DNA of 64,000 nt, taken from Burkholderiales bacterium RIFOXYD12_FULL_59_19. Lineage in GTDB: Bacteria > Pseudomonadota > Gammaproteobacteria > Burkholderiales > Burkholderiaceae_C. The notes beneath the pieces are model-generated. The model did not search any database. It was not told where the DNA came from and worked only from the letters and a program-made list of their open reading frames with translations. Position 1 is the stretch's first letter, and each line of letters starts with the position of its first letter. The stretch spans positions 1 to 64,000 of the forward strand of contig MESQ01000067.1 in NCBI GenBank assembly GCA_001771065.1, given 5' to 3'. The translations under genes and the position numbers were made by a program. Positions 36,967-55,038 of this stretch are shown in pieces.

Positions 36967-39747
36967 TCAAAATCTTAATTTTTCCTGCCCATCCAGAGTT
37001 TTTGATGTTAAAAGGCAAGCTGCCAGTGCTGCCTGGAGTTCATCGGGATTGATCGGTTTCATGAAGTAGCGCAGGATCTCATGGCGCAGCACCTCGCTCT
37101 GGTCCAGCGGATCGGTATAGCCACTGCAAAGAAAAATGGGCAGCTCGGGCTGCACCCGATGCAACTGCTGCGCCAGCGCCAGCCCCGTCAGGCCCGGCAT
37201 GGTCCGGTCAGAAATCACCAGGTCAACGTCATTTTGTTTGGCGTCAAATGCCAGTAACAAGTCCCAGGGGTGATTGAACAACCTGACCCGGTAGCCCCAC
37301 TCCTGCAGCAACTCGCCCAGGTAACGGGCCACGGAGGGCTCGTCGTCAACCACCCAAATACGTTGCCCCGTGCGCATCGGCTCCGCAAATTTCGACACCT
37401 GAGGAACGGTCTTGGACACGGGTGACGCAGCCAATGGAAACAACAGCTGAAACCAGCTCCCGTCGGGCCCGGACTTGACCAGAACATACCCATTGGAGCG
37501 GCGCATGATGCCCTGCACCATGGACAAACCCAGCCCGGTGCCCTTGCCGACCTCCTTGGTGGTAAAGAACGGATCAAACAAGCGCGGCATGTGCTCAGCG
37601 GCAATGCCTTTGCCGGTGTCAGACACCTCCAGTGCGGCAAAGGTACCCGACACCACCGAATGACTGGCGCTGCAAATCTGGCCCTTGACCTCAACCTGAC
37701 GCAACAACAGATCAATCGTGCCCTGTTCGCCAATCGCATCACGCGCGTTGATGATCAGGTTGACCAGTACCTGACTCAGCTCACTCGGGTCGATGCGGAT
37801 GGCAACATCGTCTTCGATCCAGGTCTTGATTTGAATACTCGACGGAATCGACACCCGCATCATCTTGACCACTTCATGCACCACCGCCGAGGGCAGGATC
37901 ACCTCGGCACCCAAGCTTGGCCGGGTTCCGGCAAACGTCAGCATCTTGGCAATCAGGTCACGGGCACGTTCACTGGCGCCAATCACCTCCCCCAGGTAAT
38001 CGGCCAATTTGCTTTGCCGGTCAGGCACAAAACGCTCCAGCGCCAGACGCGAATAACCCAGAATGGTGGCCAGGTTGTTGTTGAAGTCGTGCGCAATACC
38101 GCCCGTCAATTGCCCCAACTGTTCTACCTTCTGGGACTGCTGAAGTTGTCGCTCGAGTACCTTTCTGGCTGCTGCTGCCTGCACCATCTCGGTTCTGTCA
38201 CGCACGAAGGTAAAAAACAGCGCGTGCTCAGGGTCGTAAATCACTGACAAATCGACGGTAAATTCCTGCCCATTTTTGTGCCGAAGCTGGGTTTCAAACT
38301 GGTGCTTGCCAACACTGCGAATTTTTGCCATGTGTTGCGCCAAACCGGTGCTGGACTTTGGCGACTCCAACTCACTGATGTGCATGGTCAGCAGTTCGTC
38401 AACGCTGTAACCTGACATCCGGGCATAGGCCTCATTCACCTCCTGAAACTGGCCCACCGCATCCGCCACCCAAAACCCGTCGATCGACATGTCGAGCACA
38501 CGTTTGTAGCGCAACTGCGCCAACTCCCGCTGGGTCACGTTTTCGGCCACGGCAATGTAGCCGTGGGGCGCCGAATTTTCGTCGTGCACCAGCGTCACGG
38601 TTTGATCCAGCACCACCTCATTGCCCTGCTGGTCGCGCAGGTAAATCAGGCCTTCCCAGACCCCCGTGCTGGTCAAGGTGTCTTGCATCCGCTGCGCGAC
38701 CAGCGGGTCGGGCGTGATGGGGGCCGCAAACAGCGACAAGCCAGTAGCAGTCGTCTTGGGCAACGCACCCAGCAGCGCCAAACTGGCCCGGTTGCGCCAA
38801 AGCACCTTGCCCTGCAGGTCAGACACAATGACCGGTGTGCCGGTGGCGTTCAAGGCCAGCCCCTGGTTGCGCAGGGTCTGGTCACTGATGCGGCGCAATT
38901 GCATTTGCGCCGTCAACTTCTCATAGGGCCGGTTCACACACACCGCAAACATGGCCTGGTAAAAAATGCCGTAACTCAGCAGCCTATAGGCATGGCCCAG
39001 CAGGTTGTGCACATCGGTGGCGCGTACCGACTGGCTCACCAGCGCCTGACTCAAACCGGCCAGGGCAATGGCACTGAACAGCAGTGACCAAACGTCATCC
39101 CCCTTGTCCTCGGCAAGCCAGTAGGCGCGCCAGGCGGCTATGGCAAAAAGCGCCGTGATCAGGCCATTGATTTGCACCCCAAGTGGCATTGGCCAAGCAT
39201 ATTTTGGGTTCAGAATCGGCAGTGAATCAGCATAAAAAACCGTTGAAAATAGCAGCAGATTAACCACCACAAAAGCGGCAAAAATAGCAACACGCAGCCT
39301 GACCGAGGCCGGCGCCAGCACTGGAAAAAAGCCAACCACAAGCAAGCTTGTGGCCACCACCAGGCCCTCGAGCAGCCGCATCAAATTGCTTTTTTCTGCT
39401 GCCAGCGCGCCCACCGCGCCAAACGGCCCCTGAAACAGGATCGCATCGCCAAAGTCAAGCCATCCAGACGCTAAAAGCGCAATGGCGATCAACAGGTAAG
39501 AGGTAGAAACCTCTTTGGCGGGCGTATGCCATACAGTTGCAAAAACCAACACCACCAGCACCACCAAAGGGAACTCAAGCGCAACCTGAAGCCTTGTATT
39601 GACCTGCGACGCAGCATCCAGGTCGGGTAATGGCACCAGCATCACCAACAAGGCCAGCACCACCAGCACACTCACCAAGCCAATTTGTCGGCGTAACAAA
39701 AGCACATCACCAACGACTTTTTTTCGGTCAGATATATTGCGATTCAT
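36967..39747 (-). CDS. membrane-bound hybrid sensor histidine kinase (MASE3-like, PAS-PAS-HisKA-HATPase-REC)
   Basis: A 926-residue kinase. Residues ~20-290 hold about eight hydrophobic helices resembling the MASE3 sensory module. Two PAS domains follow (~295-410, VSDLQGKVLWRNRASLALL; ~420-530, DGFWVADAVGQFQEVNEAY). The HisKA His is at residue 553 (GIAHDFNNNLATILGY), then N, G1 and G2 boxes (NLIINARDAI, VSDTGKGI, GKGTGLGLSMVQG). A C-terminal receiver has the phospho-Asp at residue 847 (ISDRTMPG). It is 45 nt downstream of the HTH-REC gene and immediately upstream of the flhDC promoter region, so the pair may be a two-component system that controls motility; this is inference. Confidence 0.85.
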   Translation of the reverse strand: MNRNISDRKKVVGDVLLLRRQIGLVSVLVVLALLVMLVPLPDLDAASQVNTRLQVALEFPLVVLVVLVFATVWHTPAKEVSTSYLLIAIALLASGWLDFGDAILFQGPFGAVGALAAEKSNLMRLLEGLVVATSLLVVGFFPVLAPASVRLRVAIFAAFVVVNLLLFSTVFYADSLPILNPKYAWPMPLGVQINGLITALFAIAAWRAYWLAEDKGDDVWSLLFSAIALAGLSQALVSQSVRATDVHNLLGHAYRLLSYGIFYQAMFAVCVNRPYEKLTAQMQLRRISDQTLRNQGLALNATGTPVIVSDLQGKVLWRNRASLALLGALPKTTATGLSLFAAPITPDPLVAQRMQDTLTSTGVWEGLIYLRDQQGNEVVLDQTVTLVHDENSAPHGYIAVAENVTQRELAQLRYKRVLDMSIDGFWVADAVGQFQEVNEAYARMSGYSVDELLTMHISELESPKSSTGLAQHMAKIRSVGKHQFETQLRHKNGQEFTVDLSVIYDPEHALFFTFVRDRTEMVQAAAARKVLERQLQQSQKVEQLGQLTGGIAHDFNNNLATILGYSRLALERFVPDRQSKLADYLGEVIGASERARDLIAKMLTFAGTRPSLGAEVILPSAVVHEVVKMMRVSIPSSIQIKTWIEDDVAIRIDPSELSQVLVNLIINARDAIGEQGTIDLLLRQVEVKGQICSASHSVVSGTFAALEVSDTGKGIAAEHMPRLFDPFFTTKEVGKGTGLGLSMVQGIMRRSNGYVLVKSGPDGSWFQLLFPLAASPVSKTVPQVSKFAEPMRTGQRIWVVDDEPSVARYLGELLQEWGYRVRLFNHPWDLLLAFDAKQNDVDLVISDRTMPGLTGLALAQQLHRVQPELPIFLCSGYTDPLDQSEVLRHEILRYFMKPINPDELQAALAACLLTSKTLDGQEKLRF

Positions 39748-39792
39748 TCGACGGGTGTGCAGTTGACAGATTTGAGGCGAGTGTGTGGCGTG

Positions 39793-40359
39793 TTAAGCCT
39801 CAAGCATCAGGAGTTTCAGCAAGCGGCTGACGTCAATCGGTTTGGTCAGGCAGCATTCGGCGCCGGCGGCCAGCAGTTCGGCTTCGGTTTCCGGATTCAA
39901 ATAGCCGCTCATGGCAATCACACGCACTTCGGCAAGGCCGGGCAACTGCTTGATCTGGCGGCACACTTCGCTGCCCTTGATACCGGGCATCATGAAGTCC
40001 AGCAGCACCACCGAAGGCGCAAAAGTGTGCACCTTGCGCCCGGCCTCAAAGCCGTCGTGCGCGGTCTCTACCACCACCGCTGCGTCGCCGCCTTCAAGCA
40101 GCTCGCGTAGGAACCCGACCACCCCACGGTCATCGTCCACAATCAGCACACGCAACGGGCCCTTGTTGCCCACCGGATTCCATTGACGCGCAAAACGCTC
40201 CACCTCCTGTGAACGAAACCGTCGGTGCCCACCGGGTGTCACCTCAGCCTGCAACAAACCGCGCTGTGCCCAACCGCGCACCGTCACGGGCGACACCATC
40301 ATCCACTGGGCCACCTCGTTGGGCGTGAGGTAGGCCTGTTTTTTGTAATCTTCGTTCAT
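39793..40359 (-). CDS. HTH (MerR/excisionase-type)-receiver domain regulator
   Basis: A 188-residue protein with domains in the reverse of the usual order. The N-terminal ~60 residues are an excisionase/MerR-like winged helix (YLTPNEVAQWMMVSPVTVRGW, then GGHRRFRSQEVERFA). The C-terminal receiver has LIVDDDRG, the phospho-Asp at residue 121 (VLLDFMMPGIKG), conserved Ser in AMSGYL and Lys in CLTKPID. It is a likely partner of the adjacent hybrid kinase. It starts 13 nt before the end of the FlhB-like gene's leader and is on the same strand as the fli genes upstream. Confidence 0.83.
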   Translation of the reverse strand: MNEDYKKQAYLTPNEVAQWMMVSPVTVRGWAQRGLLQAEVTPGGHRRFRSQEVERFARQWNPVGNKGPLRVLIVDDDRGVVGFLRELLEGGDAAVVVETAHDGFEAGRKVHTFAPSVVLLDFMMPGIKGSEVCRQIKQLPGLAEVRVIAMSGYLNPETEAELLAAGAECCLTKPIDVSRLLKLLMLEA

Positions 40360-40372
40360 ACCGTGGTCTGCT

Positions 40373-40699
40373 TCATTGGGACTCCCGATTCAATCGTTTG
40401 ATCTCGTCCATGTATTTTTGTGTTTCTGGTTTGGTTTCTAGCTGATGCAACCATGCCAGCAATTCTGCCACGGCCACATAGAGTTGCGGCGGAATGCGGG
40501 CATCCAGATCAACGTCCATCAGGAGCTTCACCAAATCGGGCGAAGAATGCACATACAGTCCGTTTTCACGCGCCACCCGGATGATGGACTCGGCCACCGC
40601 GCCATAGCCCTTGGCCGCCACAATGGGCGTCATGTCCTTGTCGGAGTGGGCCAGCGCAACCGCGCTGATGCGGTTGTCGGCGGGCTGATTGACCGTCAT
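40373..40699 (-). CDS. FlhB C-terminal-domain homologue (FhlB/EscU-like switch protein)
   Basis: A 108-residue soluble protein equivalent to the C-terminal half of FlhB: AVALAHSDKDMTPIVAAKGYGAVAESI and PPQLYVAVAELLAWLHQLE align with FlhB VALKYTDKEMQAPRVIAKGADLVAMRI and IPLALYSAVAEVLAWAYQL. It lacks the membrane part and the NPTH cleavage loop, so it corresponds to the FlhB-CC fragment only. Such FhlB proteins can partly substitute for the C-terminal fragment in other bacteria. Its ATG overlaps the stop of the FliK-like gene upstream. Confidence 0.83.
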   Translation of the reverse strand: MTVNQPADNRISAVALAHSDKDMTPIVAAKGYGAVAESIIRVARENGLYVHSSPDLVKLLMDVDLDARIPPQLYVAVAELLAWLHQLETKPETQKYMDEIKRLNRESQ

Positions 40700-41643
40700 G
40701 ACGCAGGCCCTGCTGCCGTGCCTTGTGCACCAATAAACAAGCTTGTCAGCTGCAGGCCTTGTGCACCTAAACGCCCGGGCAACTCGGCCCCGGCAGCGTC
40801 AAGCAGGCCCACCGTGGCCTGTTCTTGCGCCACCACACGCAATTGCAGCGTGTTGCCCGCCAACTGCAAGCGAAATTCAACAGCCCCCAGCGTGGGCAAA
40901 TTCAGCGCCAGCCGGGTGCGCCAGCGCGTGGGCGCCGGGGCCGCATCGGCAGCGGGGCTGGCATCAGGGTCAGGTTCTACATCCCAGTCCATGACAACCC
41001 CTGACCAGGCCTCGCCAGTCCAGCGAAACTGCGGCGCGGCCAACAATTCAAGCTGCTGGCGAACCAGTGGCAGCGTGGCGAGGTTGACAGCCTCAGCCTG
41101 CCCCGGCATGGGCGCCTGAGTGTGGCTATCTGGTGCAAAAGCAACCTGGGTTTGCAGCTGTGCCTGCGGCTCCTGGGCCAACTGTGCTTGTGTGCGTGTG
41201 CCGACGGCAAACTGGCGCAAATGCGCCTCATAAAACAGCCCGGAATGGGCGACCGTGCTAGCCAGGGTGGCGGCTAATTGCGGGGTGTTGGGCGTCTGCG
41301 CGTCTGACACCAGCGGCGCGGTGCCAAAAATTCGAGTTGGCGTGGCGGCAGGCGGGTCCAAAATGGCAGTGAGCGCCCGCGCCATAGCACTCAAAGTAAC
41401 CGTTTGGTTCAGGCCTGCCGTGGGCACGGGCCTGGCCGTGTCGGCGTACTGCGGCAACACGCCACCCAGCTGTTGCTGCGCCGCCGCCCGCGACGACAGG
41501 CGCACATCGTTGGTGACCTGCCCCACCGGGTTCACCGTGACCGGACCCGTAATGTCAAATTGCCCCTTCAGGGGCACCAGATCAAGCCGCTGCGCCAGCC
41601 GCGTGGCCAGCAGGGTATCAACCAGAGGTGTGATACCGCTCAT
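40696..41643 (-). CDS. second FliK-like (Flg_hook domain) protein
   Basis: A 315-residue protein with an Ala/Gln/Thr/Pro-rich, probably disordered N-terminal two thirds and a C-terminal domain (~225-310) resembling the FliK hook-length domain: RTRLALNLPTLGAVEFRLQLAGNTLQLRVVA. The classical fliK is at 52249-55038. It sits between fliT and the FlhB-C homologue; a FliK-C/FlhB-C pair recreates the two partners of the export substrate switch. Function beyond that is unknown. Confidence 0.75.
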   Translation of the reverse strand: MSGITPLVDTLLATRLAQRLDLVPLKGQFDITGPVTVNPVGQVTNDVRLSSRAAAQQQLGGVLPQYADTARPVPTAGLNQTVTLSAMARALTAILDPPAATPTRIFGTAPLVSDAQTPNTPQLAATLASTVAHSGLFYEAHLRQFAVGTRTQAQLAQEPQAQLQTQVAFAPDSHTQAPMPGQAEAVNLATLPLVRQQLELLAAPQFRWTGEAWSGVVMDWDVEPDPDASPAADAAPAPTRWRTRLALNLPTLGAVEFRLQLAGNTLQLRVVAQEQATVGLLDAAGAELPGRLGAQGLQLTSLFIGAQGTAAGPAS

Positions 41644-44517: not shown

Positions 44518-45636
44518 TTATTGCAGCAGCGCCATCACACCCTGGGTGGACTGGTTGGCCTTGGCCAGCACCGAGGTACCAGCCTGTTGCAGGATCTGCG
44601 CACGGGTCATGTTGGAAACTTCCGTGGCGTAGTCTGCATCTTCAATCCGCGACTTGGAAGACGTCAGGTTGTTGATGGTGGTGCCCAGGTTCGAGATCAC
44701 CGAATCGAAGCGGTTTTGAACCGCACCGAGATCTCCGCGAAGGGAATCAACGTCCGACAGAGCTGCATCAATCGCTGCAAGAGGATTTGCCGTTGCGGTC
44801 AGTCCAGCGGCTGCATCTGCTTCGTAGTTAGATTTTGCTGTCGCAATGCCGGCTGCGTTCACGAAGTCAAAGGTCACAACACCAGTTGCTTCATTCACAG
44901 CGGCGGCACCAATTTCATACAAATTGCCTGACTCATCTTGTACGGCGTAATTTGCGTAGCTTTGGGTATTGGCGGTGTACGCACCATAGCCATGAAGTGT
45001 CAATACGCCAGCTGGGCCGTTGGCAACGCCTGTGAAAGCAACATCAACCGTGGTTGAAGTACCTGCTACAGAGGTATCAGTGAAACTGGTAAGTGGCGCT
45101 GACAAGCCCGAAACACTGAAGCCAGCCAAACCCAAGCTTGTTGAGTCAATTTTTTTCAAGCCGATGTCAATTGATTGGCCATCGTTAGCGCCAACTTGAA
45201 TTGAAAGGGTTTGATTGCTCGCCAACACCTTGGTGCCGTTAAAGTCGGTCTGAGTAGAGGTACGGTCAATTTCCGCCAAGCGCTGAGTGATTTCCGCCTG
45301 AATCGAAGTCTTGTCTTCAGCCGAATTGGAACCATTGGCCGCTTGAACAGCCAACTCACGGATACGTTGCAGGTTGTTGTTGACCTCGTTCAAGGCGCCT
45401 TCCGTGGTTTGCGCCAGCGAGATACCGTCATTGGCATTGCGTTGTGCTTGTGTCAAACCCTTGATGTTGGCGTTGAAACGGTTCGCAATGGCCTGACCTG
45501 CAGCGTCGTCTTTGGCGCTGTTGATGCGCATGCCCGACGAGAGGCGCTGAATGGAGGTTTCCATTGCAGATTGCGATTTGGTCAAGTTGTTTTGGGTAAG
45601 CAACGAGAGCGTGTTGGTGTTGATGACTGATCCCAT
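44518..45636 (-). CDS. fliC: flagellin
   Basis: A 372-residue filament protein from ATG 45636 ([17 protein letters not shown]), with AGGAG upstream; the track start is seven codons earlier in the leader. The N-terminal D0/D1 region ([32 protein letters not shown]) and C-terminal D1/D0 region ([46 protein letters not shown]) are fully conserved. The variable central region (~residues 170-295) is short and less GC-rich than its surroundings. It is transcribed from a sigma-28 promoter and has its own terminator. Confidence 0.97.
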
Positions 45637-45731
45637 GATAAAAGCTCCTGTAGGCAAAAGTTAATGGACTCGGCCGTTTGCCGAAACGTTGGGGTTATCC
45701 AGTTGTTAGGAGTTCGCCACCGTTATTTAGG

Positions 45732-45758: not shown

Positions 45759-45906
45759 GGGTTGAAGTCAAAAATTTATTTATATGTGCGCCCTGGCCAG
45801 CGCCAGCACACCAAGCAGTAGCCGGGCTGGCCGGTCCCCGGGCCGCAGACCAACCCGTGGCTTATGCCTAACTGATAGCGTAGCAGCAAGGCCCCATACG
45901 CATGAT

Positions 45907-45943
45907 GCCAAAAGACGCCAAATGTCCCGGTTGTTTGGCCGAT
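45907..45943. promoter_or_regulatory. candidate FlhD4C2 box upstream of fliC (no class II gene next to it)
   Basis: GCCAAAAGACG...GTTGTTTGGCCGAT is nearly the same as the site between fliE and fliF at 46887 (GCCAAAAGACG...GTTGTTCAGCCGAT). The inverted right half reads ATCGG-CC-AAACAACC, close to AAYGS-N2-AAATARCG. It is 270 bp upstream of the fliC start and 120 bp after the fliE paralogue. No plus-strand gene follows it closely. Confidence 0.55.
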
Positions 45944-46040
45944 GGGGCCATGGGGGTTAAAACCCGCCCCACAAGGCGTCATGGTATTTGTCGATTTCAA
46001 TCGACGATGCAGCGCCGTGGCCCGACTGAAGCAACGCGTA

Positions 46041-46062
46041 ATCCGGGCATTACTGCCCGGAT
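46041..46062 (-). terminator. possible terminator hairpin after the fliE paralogue
   Basis: ATCCGGGCA-(4 nt)-TGCCCGGAT is a perfect 9-bp stem three bases after the stop. There is no T-tract on the minus strand, so it may be a stability or processing hairpin rather than a true intrinsic terminator. Confidence 0.45.
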
Positions 46063-46064
46063 GA

Positions 46065-46415
46065 TCAGGGCTTCATGTTCATGACTTGCTGGTAAGCCGC
46101 CACCTGCTTGTTGCGCAAGTACATCCCCAGCTGAGAATTGTCGCCAGATTTTTGCAGGCCATCCATGGCGTCGTTCAGCACGGCACCAGGCTCGCCCAGG
46201 GCAAAGGCCTCGGTTGGGCCAGAAACCTTGTTTTGCGCCTCATTGACGCGCGCCAGCGTATGTTTTAGCGTGTCTGAAAAACTGACGCTGGACGACTCAA
46301 TCTTTGGCGCTGCCAGCTGGCACGGGTCGTCAACCTTGACCATTTGGCGCACCTGGCGTATTTGCGCCAGCACCGAATCAATGGACGCGCCAGAGGAGAC
46401 AGACGAGATAGCCAT
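46065..46415 (-). CDS. FliE paralogue (divergent second copy)
   Basis: A 116-residue protein clearly homologous to the FliE encoded 40 nt upstream: both share FSDTLK-T/S-L-R pairs, a QNK motif, EAF-LG-PG-LND and a C-terminal RNK-VAAYQ-VM-M block. In this copy the rod-interaction segment [12 protein letters not shown] is changed to NSQLGMYLRNKQ, and an extra Pro/Cys-containing stretch (VDDPCQLAAPK) occurs in the first half. It is not obviously a pseudogene: start, stop and frame are intact. It may form a mixed FliE ring or have taken another role. Confidence 0.85.
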   Translation of the reverse strand: MAISSVSSGASIDSVLAQIRQVRQMVKVDDPCQLAAPKIESSSVSFSDTLKHTLARVNEAQNKVSGPTEAFALGEPGAVLNDAMDGLQKSGDNSQLGMYLRNKQVAAYQQVMNMKP

Positions 46416-46455
46416 AAAAGTGCCAGTGGTTCAGCCGTTCAACGGGTGCGCCATG

Positions 46456-46806
46456 TCACGGCGTCATACTCATGACTTCCTGGTAGGCGGCCACCAGCTT
46501 GTTGCGTACCTGCACACCCATCTGGAAATTGATGCTGGCTTTTTGCAGGTCGACCATCACGTCATTGAGCGCCACCCCGGGTTTGCCCAGTTCAAACGCT
46601 TCGGCCTGGCTGTAGGCCTTGTTTTGGCTTTGACTGATACGCGTCAACGACCGTTTCAGGGTGTCCGAAAAGTTGACGCTGGCGGCGTCGCCATTCAGCG
46701 CCGACGCCTGGTCTGCGTCTGCCATTCCGGCGGATTGGCGCAGCTGGCGCATTTGCGTTAGCGCCGATTCAATCGGTGCGTTTGACAAGAGAGTCGGTAG
46801 CGCCAT
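46456..46806 (-). CDS. fliE: MS-ring/rod junction protein FliE
   Basis: A 116-residue protein from ATG 46806 ([13 protein letters not shown]), preceded by AAGGA; the track start at 46836 is ten codons upstream. The canonical C-terminal FliE sequence is present: [25 protein letters not shown]. FliE connects the FliF MS ring to the proximal rod and is exported early. It diverges from fliF across a candidate FlhDC box and is followed by a second fliE-like gene. Confidence 0.93.
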
Positions 46807-46886
46807 GCGGAGTTCCTTTGGCGCCCAAGCGCCCATGATTGATCCAAGTGCCCCAAGCGTAGCCGCGTAAAGCCATGGTGCATCGC

Positions 46887-46923
46887 GCCAAAAGACGGCA
46901 AAAGCACCAGTTGTTCAGCCGAT
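46887..46923. promoter_or_regulatory. candidate FlhD4C2 box in the fliE-fliF divergent region
   Basis: Left half ATCGC-GCC-AAAAGACG and an inverted right half read as ATCGG-CT-GAACAACT resemble the FlhDC half-site AAYGS-N2-3-AAATARCG with a spacer in the normal range. It lies between the divergent fliE (start 46806) and fliF (start 46948) and can serve both. The 37-bp core matches the sites at 45907 and 24422. Confidence 0.62.
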
Positions 46924-46947
46924 CAGCCCACCGACCCTAATCGCACA

Positions 46948-48639
46948 ATGCTTGGCATGAGTAATGACGCCACCGCCCCCAACCCGGCCTTGCTGGACCA
47001 GTGGCGCGCCAACCCGCGGCTGCCGCTGATGCTGGGGGTGTCGGCCCTGGTGGCCGCTGTGGCTGCCATGTGGCTGTGGAGCCGGGCCCCCGATTACGGC
47101 GTGCTGTACAGCAATTTGTCGGACCGTGATGGCGGCGCCATCATTGCCTCGCTGCAGCAAATGAACATCCCGTACAAGTTCACCGACGGCGGTGGCGCCT
47201 TGCTGGTAGCTGCCAACAAGGTGCCCGAGGCGCGCTTGCGACTGGCGGCACAAGGCTTGCCCAAGGGCGGCACAATGGGCTTTGAGCTGCTGGACAACCA
47301 GAAGTTTGGCACCAGCCAGTTTGCCGAACAGGTCAACTACCAGCGCGCCCTGGAGGGCGAGTTGGCGCGCTCCATCAATTCGATTTCGGCAGTCAGCATG
47401 TCGCGTGTGCATCTGGCCCTGCCCAAGCCCTCACTGTTTGTGCGCGACCAGAAAAAGCCAAGCGCTTCGGTGGTGTTGACCCTGCACCAGGGCCGCAGCA
47501 TTGATGAGGCGCAGATCAGCGCCGTGGTGCACCTGATCTCGAGCAGCGTGCCCGAACTGTCGGCCAAAAGCATTACCGTGGTCGACCAGGCCGGCAACCT
47601 GCTGTCTGCGGCCAATGTCAACACACGTGGTCTGGACACCAGCCAGCTGAAGTACGCACAAGAGATTGAGCAGGGCTACATTCGCCGTATCGAGGCCATT
47701 TTGCTGCCCATCGTCGGGCCCGGCAATGTCCATGCCCAGGTGTCGGCCGATGTCGATTTTTCCGTGGTTGAAAACACCGACGAAAAATACCGTCCCAACG
47801 ACGGCAGCGGCAACGCGGCCATCCGCAGTCAGCAGATCAGCGAATCCAGCCAGGCTGGCGGCGGTGCCGCTGGCGGGGTACCGGGGGCGCTCAGCAACCA
47901 GGCACCGCAAACGCCGCTGCTTGCCAGCGCGGCGGCCAGTGCAGCGGCACCGGCCGCCACCGCATCGCAACCCCAGCCAGACACCAACGCTGGCGTGGCA
48001 GCAGCCAATGCGCGCTCTGATGGCACCACCAACTATGAACTGGACCGCTCAATCCGCCATGTGCAGCAAGGTGCTGGCAACATCAAACGCCTGTCGGCGG
48101 CGGTGCTGGTGAACTACCGCAGCCAGCTCAATGCACAGGGCAAGCGCGACAACCAGGCGTTGACGGCAGAGGAACTTGAACAGATCAAAAACCTGGTGAA
48201 GGAAACCATGGGCTTCAGCGCAGAGCGCGGCGACTCGGTCAACGTGGTCAATAGCCCCTTCGCCGAGGAACCCAAGGTCGAGCTGCCTGAGCTGCCATGG
48301 TGGCGCCAGCCCGAAAACATTGAGCTGGCCACGGTGGCGGGCAAAGGCCTGCTGATGGGCGTGCTCGGTTTGTACTTGCTGCTGGGGGTGTTCCGGCCTT
48401 TGTTGAACAAGTTTTTGCAGCCAGCGGGCGCTGCACACGCCCCGGCCCAGGCCAATGGCACCGAACAGGTGGGTACCGACATGGGCGCCAGTGCCACGGC
48501 GCCGCAGTCAGCGCCAGCGCATGACCCGCAAGTGCGGCGGCACCAGGAAAATATCCAATACGCACAAAAATCGGCGCTTGAGGGCCCCCAAATGGTGGCC
48601 ATGGTGGTGAAGAACTGGATGGGAAAAAGCAATGAATGA
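46948..48639 (+). CDS. fliF: flagellar MS-ring protein FliF
   Basis: A 563-residue inner-membrane protein that forms the basal-body MS ring and houses the export gate. Membrane helices are at ~29-48 (LPLMLGVSALVAAVAAMWLW) and ~455-475 (VAGKGLLMGVLGLYLLLG). RBM blocks include DYGVLYSNLSDRDGGAI, FGTSQFAEQVNYQRALEGEL and VVDQAGNLLS. An Ala/Pro/Gln-rich insertion lies at ~305-355. The C-terminus binds FliG. Start ATG 46948 or 46957 (MSND); neither has a strong ribosome site. It overlaps fliG by 8 nt. Confidence 0.96.
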   Translation: MLGMSNDATAPNPALLDQWRANPRLPLMLGVSALVAAVAAMWLWSRAPDYGVLYSNLSDRDGGAIIASLQQMNIPYKFTDGGGALLVAANKVPEARLRLAAQGLPKGGTMGFELLDNQKFGTSQFAEQVNYQRALEGELARSINSISAVSMSRVHLALPKPSLFVRDQKKPSASVVLTLHQGRSIDEAQISAVVHLISSSVPELSAKSITVVDQAGNLLSAANVNTRGLDTSQLKYAQEIEQGYIRRIEAILLPIVGPGNVHAQVSADVDFSVVENTDEKYRPNDGSGNAAIRSQQISESSQAGGGAAGGVPGALSNQAPQTPLLASAAASAAAPAATASQPQPDTNAGVAAANARSDGTTNYELDRSIRHVQQGAGNIKRLSAAVLVNYRSQLNAQGKRDNQALTAEELEQIKNLVKETMGFSAERGDSVNVVNSPFAEEPKVELPELPWWRQPENIELATVAGKGLLMGVLGLYLLLGVFRPLLNKFLQPAGAAHAPAQANGTEQVGTDMGASATAPQSAPAHDPQVRRHQENIQYAQKSALEGPQMVAMVVKNWMGKSNE

Positions 48640-52248: not shown

Positions 52249-55038
52249 ATGTCTGTCATTCTTCCAGCTACTGCCCTGACACCACTGACAGGCGGCCGGG
52301 CCGCCAAGGCCAGCGCCAGCAGCATGGGAACCTCGGCTGAATCGCTCAGCTTCAGCGAGGTGTTTGTGCTGTCGCTGAAAACAGCGCCGGTCGGCACCAA
52401 AGCCGGGGCGGCCACGGTCATTACCCAAACTGTTGAAGCAGTCGTTGCGAAAGCGCCAGAGGAACCCCAGGCAGAGGGCAGTTATCCCGCAGACCTGCTG
52501 GGCGCCATGGTGATGGCCCTGCAAACCCTTGACCGGGCCATGCCCACAGCCCCGGCAATCACGACAGCCGCTAGGAGTAAATCGGCACCAACTGACCCTG
52601 AGGGCCTGACCGCCACCCAAGGCAGCCACCACCCGGCCCCAGAGACGGCCACCACCACAACCCCCATCGTCAGCGCAATGGCCGCTGGGGCACCTCAGCC
52701 AGTCCACCCTGCCGACTTAACACCAGCACCAGTTGCCGCACCGGATGCAGCGCCCACGCGGCCTGCCACCGATACGACCCCCATGCCTGGTCACACACCA
52801 GCAGCCCCGTCAATCGCCCACCCCCTGCCTGAGGCAGCCATCGTCAGCAACACCCAAAGCCACACAGCCCAAGCACCACAATCCAGCGGGCAAAAGGCAA
52901 TGACCAGTGCCTTGCATGTGCCAGCCAAAGATGACACCTCGACAAGCACTGCGATCGAACCAGCCAAAGGCGTAATCACGGCGGCGCCTGTCGCCGACCT
53001 ACCAGACACGGCAAGCACTGCGGCGGCCAGCCCCGTCATGGCATCGGTCACCGCCTTCAACAGTGTGGCGGAAAGGATCACTCAGCCAGTTCGCCCGGCC
53101 ACCTTAACGCCATTAACACCGCAAGCATCGGTCGCAATACCCGTCGCAGCGCCTATTGCTGCGTCCGTGGTGTCGCCCGTTGCAGCACCCGCGCAGTTTG
53201 CTGCCGATCCGGCACCCTTGTCAGCTCACACACCGGTAGCGAAACAAGCCACCCGCAACCCGCCAGTGACAACTGTTGCCAGCAGCACCCCAAGTCCCAC
53301 CGTCCAAACCCCTCAGTCCAGCAGGCAAAACACGGTGCCAAGCGCCTTGCCTATGCCAGCCACAGGTGAAAACACGACAAACCCTGTAGCCGAGCCAGCC
53401 AAAGGTGAAATCACGGCGGCGCCTGTTACAGATCTACCAGGCGCGGCAAGCCTTGTTGCGCCCAGCCCCGTCATGGCACCGATCACCGCCGTCGACCGCA
53501 TGGTGGACGGGTTCACTCAGCCAGTTCGCCCGGCAGCCTTTACGCCATTCATACCGCAAGCGCCGGTTGCGGTACCCGTTGTTGCGGCGTCCGAGGTATC
53601 GCCCGCTGCATCGCACGCACAAGCTGCCGCCGATGCAGCACCCTTGTCGGCTCACACAGCAGCAGCCCAACCAACCGCCCGCACCCCGCCAGAAGCAGCC
53701 GTTGTTGGCAGCACCTCACGCCACATCCCCCAAGCGCCGCAATCCAGCGGGCAAAACACCTTGCGTGCGTCAGCCAAAGATGCCCCCCCGACAAGCCCTG
53801 CGATTGAGCTCGCCAAAGGCACAATCACGGCAGCCCCTGTTACCGGCCTACCGGACACAGCCAGCCCTGCTGCGACAAGAAGCCCTGCGACAGCCAGCCC
53901 AGTCATGACACCAGTCACCACTTTCAACCGCGTGGCTGATGGGCTCACTCAGCCAGTTCGCCCGGCAGGCTTAACACCATTGACACCGCAAGCGCTGGTT
54001 GCAGCGCCGATTGCAGCATCAGTCCCAGCGCCCGCTGCCGCACCCACACGGCCTGCAGCCAATACGACATCCGTGTCAATTCAAACTCCGGTAGCTCAGT
54101 CAACCGCCCGCACCCTGCCAGAGACAAGCCTTGGCAGCAGTACTGGCAACCAAACCACAGAAATACCAGCGACGGCAAGTGCCGTCCCGACAGGCCCCGC
54201 CCTGGCAACGGCCACGGTCATGAACGGCATGGCTGAGACCTTGATCCGGACCGTCAGCCTGATGGCGCAAAAACAGGCCACACCACTCCAGCCCGCTGCC
54301 TCGCCAGTTCGCCCTGCCCTTGTGAACGACGCGCCAGCCGAAGCACTTGCCACCGACGGGAGCACCGCACCGCTGCTGCCAAACCTTGACACCACGTCGT
54401 CAACGGAGGCAGCCAGCAGCTTTATCCTCAGCAGCAACAGTGACAACCTCGGCCACGGCGACACCTTTGACAACACCGCCAATAACATCGTCAACACAGG
54501 TTTTCTGCCGCAACCCGGGCCGACAGCGCCCAACCCTGCGGCAGCAGCTACGGGCCTCGCCAACACCCACCCGACCGACGCCAACGTGGTTCAGGCACTG
54601 CTCAGCCCCGAAGTCAGCAGCAAGGAATGGCGTCACGCACTGAGCCAGCAGGTGGTGCATCTGAAGCAGTCTGATCAGCAGGTCGCCGAGTTACAACTCA
54701 ACCCACCTGGCCTGGGACCCTTGAAGGTCACCTTGGCGATGGTTGATCAGCAGATGCAGCTCATGTTTGTGTCTGCCCATGCCGCCGTGCGGGCGGCAGT
54801 TGAAGCGGCCGTGCCACAATTACGCGCCAGTCTGGCCGACACTGGCATCAGTCTGGGCAACACCACGGTGAGCGCCGACAACCAGCCCCAGGCGGCATTT
54901 GCCCAAAGCCAACAGAATGCCTCCCAGCAGCGCCGGGCCTACCGGCAGGCCAGCCAGAGCACCCCGGCATCTTTCAATCCGGGCCCGGCTTCAGGCCGCA
55001 GCCAACCCAGCCATGGCAGAGTGGACACTTTTGCCTGA
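52249..55038 (+). CDS. fliK: flagellar hook-length control protein FliK (long, with internal repeats)
   Basis: A 929-residue molecular ruler. About 800 residues are Ala/Pro/Thr-rich and low-complexity, including three full and one partial copy of a ~143-residue repeat. The C-terminal Flg_hook domain (~800-890) has LQLNPPGLGPLKVTLAM and HAAVRAAVEAAVPQLRASLADTGISLG, the part that contacts FlhB to switch export. The tail is Gln/Ser-rich. Typical FliK is around 400-500 residues, so this is about twice the normal size. It is the last gene of fliFGHIJK; fliL follows after 133 nt. Confidence 0.92.
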   Translation: MSVILPATALTPLTGGRAAKASASSMGTSAESLSFSEVFVLSLKTAPVGTKAGAATVITQTVEAVVAKAPEEPQAEGSYPADLLGAMVMALQTLDRAMPTAPAITTAARSKSAPTDPEGLTATQGSHHPAPETATTTTPIVSAMAAGAPQPVHPADLTPAPVAAPDAAPTRPATDTTPMPGHTPAAPSIAHPLPEAAIVSNTQSHTAQAPQSSGQKAMTSALHVPAKDDTSTSTAIEPAKGVITAAPVADLPDTASTAAASPVMASVTAFNSVAERITQPVRPATLTPLTPQASVAIPVAAPIAASVVSPVAAPAQFAADPAPLSAHTPVAKQATRNPPVTTVASSTPSPTVQTPQSSRQNTVPSALPMPATGENTTNPVAEPAKGEITAAPVTDLPGAASLVAPSPVMAPITAVDRMVDGFTQPVRPAAFTPFIPQAPVAVPVVAASEVSPAASHAQAAADAAPLSAHTAAAQPTARTPPEAAVVGSTSRHIPQAPQSSGQNTLRASAKDAPPTSPAIELAKGTITAAPVTGLPDTASPAATRSPATASPVMTPVTTFNRVADGLTQPVRPAGLTPLTPQALVAAPIAASVPAPAAAPTRPAANTTSVSIQTPVAQSTARTLPETSLGSSTGNQTTEIPATASAVPTGPALATATVMNGMAETLIRTVSLMAQKQATPLQPAASPVRPALVNDAPAEALATDGSTAPLLPNLDTTSSTEAASSFILSSNSDNLGHGDTFDNTANNIVNTGFLPQPGPTAPNPAAAATGLANTHPTDANVVQALLSPEVSSKEWRHALSQQVVHLKQSDQQVAELQLNPPGLGPLKVTLAMVDQQMQLMFVSAHAAVRAAVEAAVPQLRASLADTGISLGNTTVSADNQPQAAFAQSQQNASQQRRAYRQASQSTPASFNPGPASGRSQPSHGRVDTFA
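52795..54282 (+). repeat. intragenic tandem repeats of ~430 bp in fliK (3 full copies + 1 partial)
   Basis: Copies begin at 52795 (435 bp), 53230 (426 bp), 53656 (429 bp) and 54085 (partial, about 200 bp). Shared landmarks are AKG-ITAAPV--LP, MTQP-like TQPVRPA-LTP--PQA, APLSAH, and TP-A followed by QAPQSSGQN. All lengths are multiples of three, keeping the frame. Sequence identity is partial, so the duplications are not recent. Confidence 0.85.

Follow-up and report, generated by a model that had tools for sequence, protein, structure and literature searches.

Tandem fliE genes with reciprocally diverged copies in a Burkholderiales flagellar cluster

The window analysed here, a 64,000-nucleotide stretch of a Burkholderiales genome, carries two complete fliE genes side by side, designated fliE1 and fliE2. 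In our preferred reading, to which we give a probability of roughly 60%, fliE2 is a lineage-specific local duplicate whose product, a FliE with a loosened rod domain, is scarce and partly redundant. FliE forms the joint between the flagellar rod and the membrane base, and it ties the onset of rod assembly to opening of the flagellum's export channel; its six non-equivalent sites are thought to be filled by six identical FliE subunits. The pair is an unusual natural test of how far the joint between rod and base can change.

Two FliE-family genes in one flagellar cluster

The two open reading frames lie on the minus strand between fliF and fliC, 40 nt apart. The locus comprises the following features.

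46948..48639, plus strand: fliF, the divergently transcribed MS-ring gene (PF01514, PF08345)
46807..46953, minus strand: fliE1 leader, between fliE1 and fliF, a conserved element with a ribosome-binding site
46456..46806, minus strand: fliE1, 116 aa (MALPT...), canonical FliE (PF02049, 92.7 bits), with an AAGGA ribosome-binding site
46416..46441, minus strand: truncated copy of the leader, immediately preceding the start codon of fliE2; it matches the fliE1 leader at 85% over 26 nt
46065..46415, minus strand: fliE2, 116 aa (MAISS...), divergent FliE (PF02049, 61.1 bits)
46037..46062, minus strand: hairpin just past the fliE2 stop codon, with a 9-bp stem (ATCCGGGCA/TGCCCGGAT), from folding
45877..45950, minus strand: third copy of the leader, in the interval between fliE2 and fliC (upstream of the latter), matching the fliE1 leader at 69% over 75 nt (E = 3e-6)
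44518..45639, minus strand: fliC, flagellin, the next gene downstream (PF00669, PF00700)

Both genes belong to the known FliE family. Their scores against PF02049 (above) and TIGR00205 (88.3 bits for fliE1, 58.4 bits for fliE2) exceed the curated cut-offs of 22.4 bits (Pfam) and 30 bits (NCBIfam), and the pair adjoins fliF in a flagellar cluster with fliJ, fliK, fliL, fliM, fliO, fliR, flhA, fliC, fliD and others; flhC is also present within the window. The two adjacent intact FliE genes described in the initial annotation are thus borne out by both their reading frames and their family matches. Searching the whole assembly for FliE returned no match besides these two.

The proteins align without gaps over 115 residues, 56 of which are identical (49%). 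Seven invariant FliE residues (F46, L80, K89, R101, N102, A107 and Y108) are retained in both copies, and fliE2 lacks F94 and V100, two of the five nearly invariant ones. The canonical segment ascribed to the upstream copy and the NSQLGMYLRNKQ segment ascribed to the downstream copy were both found in the proteins as quoted. A Pro-Cys insertion, also ascribed to fliE2, is rejected because the alignment is gapless: VDDPCQLAAP in fliE2 matches VADPGQAAAA and AGDPGQVAAP in the single FliE of two related genomes (G051 and G013, respectively), so that DPCQ in place of the relatives' DPGQ is a Gly-to-Cys substitution. AlphaFold placed helices near residues 9–26, 46–72 and 80–112 in both copies, at low confidence (pLDDT 54 and 61); confidence for fliE2 relative to fliE1 was slightly higher in α1 and clearly lower in α2/α3, both models being weak.

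Elsewhere in the window, a stand-alone FlhB C-domain protein (40373–40699, minus strand; 108 aa, PF01312) overlaps the gene for a second FliK-domain protein (40696–41643, minus strand; 315 aa, PF02120), which is separate from the regular 929-aa FliK at 52249–55038 and is retained in G051 (58%) and G070 (44%); the two possibly form an extra substrate-switch pair. At 36967–40359 (minus strand), a MASE3-PAS hybrid histidine kinase lies beside a response regulator whose N terminus carries a MerR-type helix-turn-helix, and G070 keeps this kinase/regulator pair beside its flagellin genes.

Relatives, leader repeats and the origin of the pair

By FliF, the same flagellar system is present in four genomes of the genus (G051, G070, G056 and G013; 71–78% identity), whereas other near-complete FliF matches reach at most 56%. 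Each of the four carries one fliE of the same type, and a search of the relatives for a second copy showed that none carries fliE2. The order fliE-fliC-flaG-fliD-fliS is common to G051 and G070, where fliE and fliC are separated by less than 200 nt, which leaves no room for a second fliE; on the G013 and G056 contigs, the sequence behind fliE is unrelated.

Phylogenetic trees placed fliE1 and fliE2 as sisters, with G013 next, inside a five-member clade supported at 100/100. Support for the sister node was 91/72 in a tree of 110 proteins, 72.6/49 with 13 proteins and 76.2/75 with 13 DNA sequences. The trees thus favor sister copies with modest support, and for this reason the duplication may slightly predate the split from G013, with a possible loss in that genome. 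Sister placement, together with the single fliE of the four same-system genomes, supports the tandem duplication proposed initially. An assembly artefact is unlikely, given the conserved gene order of the 64-kb stretch around the pair, the divergence of the copies and the leader remnants.

Transfer of fliE2 from another flagellar system or species, followed by insertion beside fliE1, would be compatible with the modest sister support and with the greater identity of fliE2 to the G013 FliE (58%) than to fliE1 (49%). We consider this origin highly improbable, however, since both protein and DNA trees group fliE2 with fliE1 within the fully supported clade, GC and GC3 are equal in the two genes, and a remnant of the same leader precedes fliE2. 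Nor was a closer relative found among the searched genomes: the best match to fliE2 in the genome collection was 41%, and plasmids yielded ordinary fliE alone, at <50%.

The leaders suggest how a local duplication may have arisen. The fliE1 leader is 67–79% similar to the leaders of G013, G056, G070 and G051, sharing an element of roughly GAACAACCGGG-N-TTTTGCCGTCTTTTGGCG ... GCTACGCT that is followed in most related genomes by an AAGGA-type ribosome-binding site. From its position and the presence of flhC in the window, the element is a putative FlhDC-dependent class-2 promoter. G051 and G070, in which fliE and fliF have become separated, have two leader copies each, with one preceding each of the two genes. 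In G051 (L107, 6660–13572), an insertion of ~7 kb separates fliF from fliE and is flanked on both sides by the fliE leader element; its genes encode a TPR/glycosyltransferase-41 protein, a DegT aminotransferase and others. Three leaders and two genes in the window suggest unequal crossing-over between leader repeats flanking fliE, and the gene was probably doubled by such recombination: a leader repeat would first have flanked fliE, and unequal crossing-over between the repeats would then have doubled the gene inside a single flagellar cluster.

The remnant before fliE2 has neither the downstream half of the leader nor a Shine-Dalgarno sequence. Predicted Shine-Dalgarno pairing is −1.5 kcal/mol for fliE2, compared with −5.4 to −5.7 for fliE1 (−5.6) and the relatives' fliE. 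Because its own leader has lost these parts, fliE2 seems to be weakly translated, although the absence of a Shine-Dalgarno sequence alone is no proof of low translation. Behind fliE2, the hairpin is not followed by a T tract (region z-score −2.9); a promoter and terminator scan around the pair found nothing above chance and did not list this hairpin. The third leader copy might render fliC partly class-2 driven. A sigma-28-like site (TAAAGG...GCCGATAA) lies closer to fliC than this copy does.

Reciprocal divergence, selection and FliE contacts

Divergence between the copies is reciprocal: fliE1 has changed in its N-terminal part and fliE2 in α2/α3. Over the N-terminal 45 residues, fliE2 is 60–63% identical to G013 and G051, compared with 39–48% for fliE1; over α3, fliE1 is 83–90% identical and fliE2 53–58%. 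Sites at which only one copy has the outgroup residue split 5:13 (fliE1:fliE2) in the N-terminal part and 23:3 in α2 and α3 (Fisher p = 7e-5). The initial view of the downstream copy as the divergent one consequently holds for the canonical segment but not for the N-terminal part, where it is the upstream copy that has diverged.

Branch-specific codon models were fitted to 13 sequences of this short gene; synonymous sites were close to saturation, and a single genome represented fliE2. Whole-gene ω was 0.13 for the background, 0.18 for fliE1 and 0.29 for fliE2; this dN/dS comparison, which the initial annotation had suggested, rejected neutrality of fliE2 (ω = 1, p = 0.003) and weakly rejected its equality with the background (p = 0.036). 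In α3, ω was 0.062 for the background, 0.012 for fliE1 and 0.33 for fliE2, the last differing from both the background (p = 1.7e-4) and 1 (p = 0.012). In the N-terminal part, fliE2 (0.21) resembled the background (0.25), and fliE1 (0.46) was not significantly higher (p = 0.15). These results show that fliE2 is under purifying selection, weaker in α3. Conservation in fliE2 is highest in the N-terminal region, which speaks against a new export signal there, an idea raised initially.

The main rival to a partly redundant FliE is ongoing decay, in which fliE2 would be a redundant duplicate heading for loss: constrained early, then deprived of its Shine-Dalgarno sequence and drifting in α3, with little or no protein and no role. 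The truncated leader, the elevated ω of α3 (0.33 against 0.06) and the replacement of the nearly invariant F94 and V100 all fit this account. So do the terminal branch of fliE2, the longest of its clade (0.59 in the 110-protein tree; fliE1, 0.27), and the truncated second copy in the other tandem pair, that of G824. Decay nevertheless strikes us as fairly unlikely. A pseudogene would have a broken frame or evolve neutrally, but the fliE2 frame is intact and ω = 1 is rejected for the whole gene as for α3, with the qualification that a branch-average ω is insensitive to recent relaxation. Simulated neutral drift left the frame intact by chance with P = 0.04–0.25, making the open frame weak evidence alone; the seven invariant residues are kept as well, and the N-terminal part is as constrained as in orthologues.

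Residue contacts known for Salmonella FliE from genetics and cryoEM (PMC8546590) were mapped onto fliE2 through a gapless alignment (fliE2 residue = Salmonella number + 12). fliE2 keeps the counterparts of A95 and V99, which contact FliP, of K77, which contacts FliR, and of G85 and the C-terminal M102. Where M82 of Salmonella meets E98/V99 in a FliE–FliE contact, fliE2 has S and Q/V, and the FliR contacts D74 and M84 become G and L; L92 is replaced by Q and Q103 by K. Since D74G and M82T are harmless as single mutations in Salmonella and Q103K leaves 31% motility (PMC8546590), fliE2 could be partly functional.

A heteromeric FliE layer with divided work, in line with the mixed MS-ring/rod junction raised initially, is another conceivable outcome, with FliE2 at one of six non-equivalent FliP5–FliR sites and FliE1 elsewhere. 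FliE1 would then be specialised in rod-core packing and gate opening, and a scarce FliE2 might take up the closing position or the one next to FliR; both assignments are doubtful. The six FliE sites of Salmonella are indeed not equivalent (PMC12403130), the copies diverge reciprocally by domain, FliE2 is altered at FliE–FliE and FliR contacts while retaining those to FliP, and a low FliE2 dosage would fit one site in six. However, the N-terminal acceleration of fliE1 is not significant, α3 of fliE2 appears relaxed rather than remade (ω below 1), and a single FliE builds the layer in each relative. We hold this division of work to be quite improbable, though less so than transfer.

Under the preferred reading of a partly redundant duplicate, fliE1 would carry the essential role, and fliE2, presumably co-transcribed with it, would be expressed at low dosage. 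FliE2 would be exported and bind the MS ring through its conserved N-terminal helix and would still touch FliP, and its α3 rod-core helix would be loosened at the FliE–FliE and FliR contacts. Because of this loosening, any contribution of FliE2 to the FliE layer would be that of a minor and partly redundant subunit at most.

Rarity of tandem fliE and comparison with known FliE

We surveyed PF02049 matches in samples of the genus (90 genomes, 63 with FliE), family (401, 320), order (300, 201) and phylum (349, 277), giving ~830 distinct FliE-bearing genomes. For multi-match genomes outside the genus, match positions were re-located; positions within the genus were listed directly. At the threshold used (E = 0.001), from which more diverged second copies would escape, adjacent copies occurred in 2 of the ~830 genomes: that of the window and G824. 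This search for paired fliE, proposed initially, agrees with the view that a tandem pair is unusual. The accompanying statement that fliE is normally single applies per flagellar system but not per genome, as many two-system genomes carry two distant copies; 53 of the 320 FliE-bearing genomes in the family sample have at least two FliE. A search of open-access papers found no report of duplicated or tandem fliE.

In G824, from the same phylum but another family, the pair lies next to fliF (L148, 3808–4413) in the order flgB-flgC-fliE-fliE′-fliF, with flgB and flgC assigned by reading ORF translations. Its second ORF encodes 76 aa, and the FliE match starts at profile position 37, the N-terminal part being missing.

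A FliE2 that is under selection yet altered at FliE–FliE and FliR contacts offers a natural tool for asking which FliE contacts matter at which site, and the pair lets one ask whether mixed subunits are tolerated, or put to use, in the FliE layer. Were fliE2 no more than a fading duplicate, the locus would still illustrate how repeated leaders flanking a small operon can lead to duplication of a component with a tightly controlled copy number.

Compared with Salmonella FliE (7BIN; PF02049, TIGR00205), both copies share family scores above the cut-offs and all seven invariant residues; a three-helix layout (α1, then α2/α3 of domain D0) is suggested for both by the weak models. They differ from it in standing side by side within one flagellar system, and fliE2 differs from known FliE at F94, V100 and the counterparts of Salmonella M82, E98, D74 and L92. 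Two-system genomes likewise encode two FliE proteins, but their fliE copies are separated by tens of kb or sit on different contigs, and none are adjacent. The G824 pair, the sole other adjacent one in the survey, sits in a different operon, is of independent origin and has a truncated second copy, whereas both copies are full length here.
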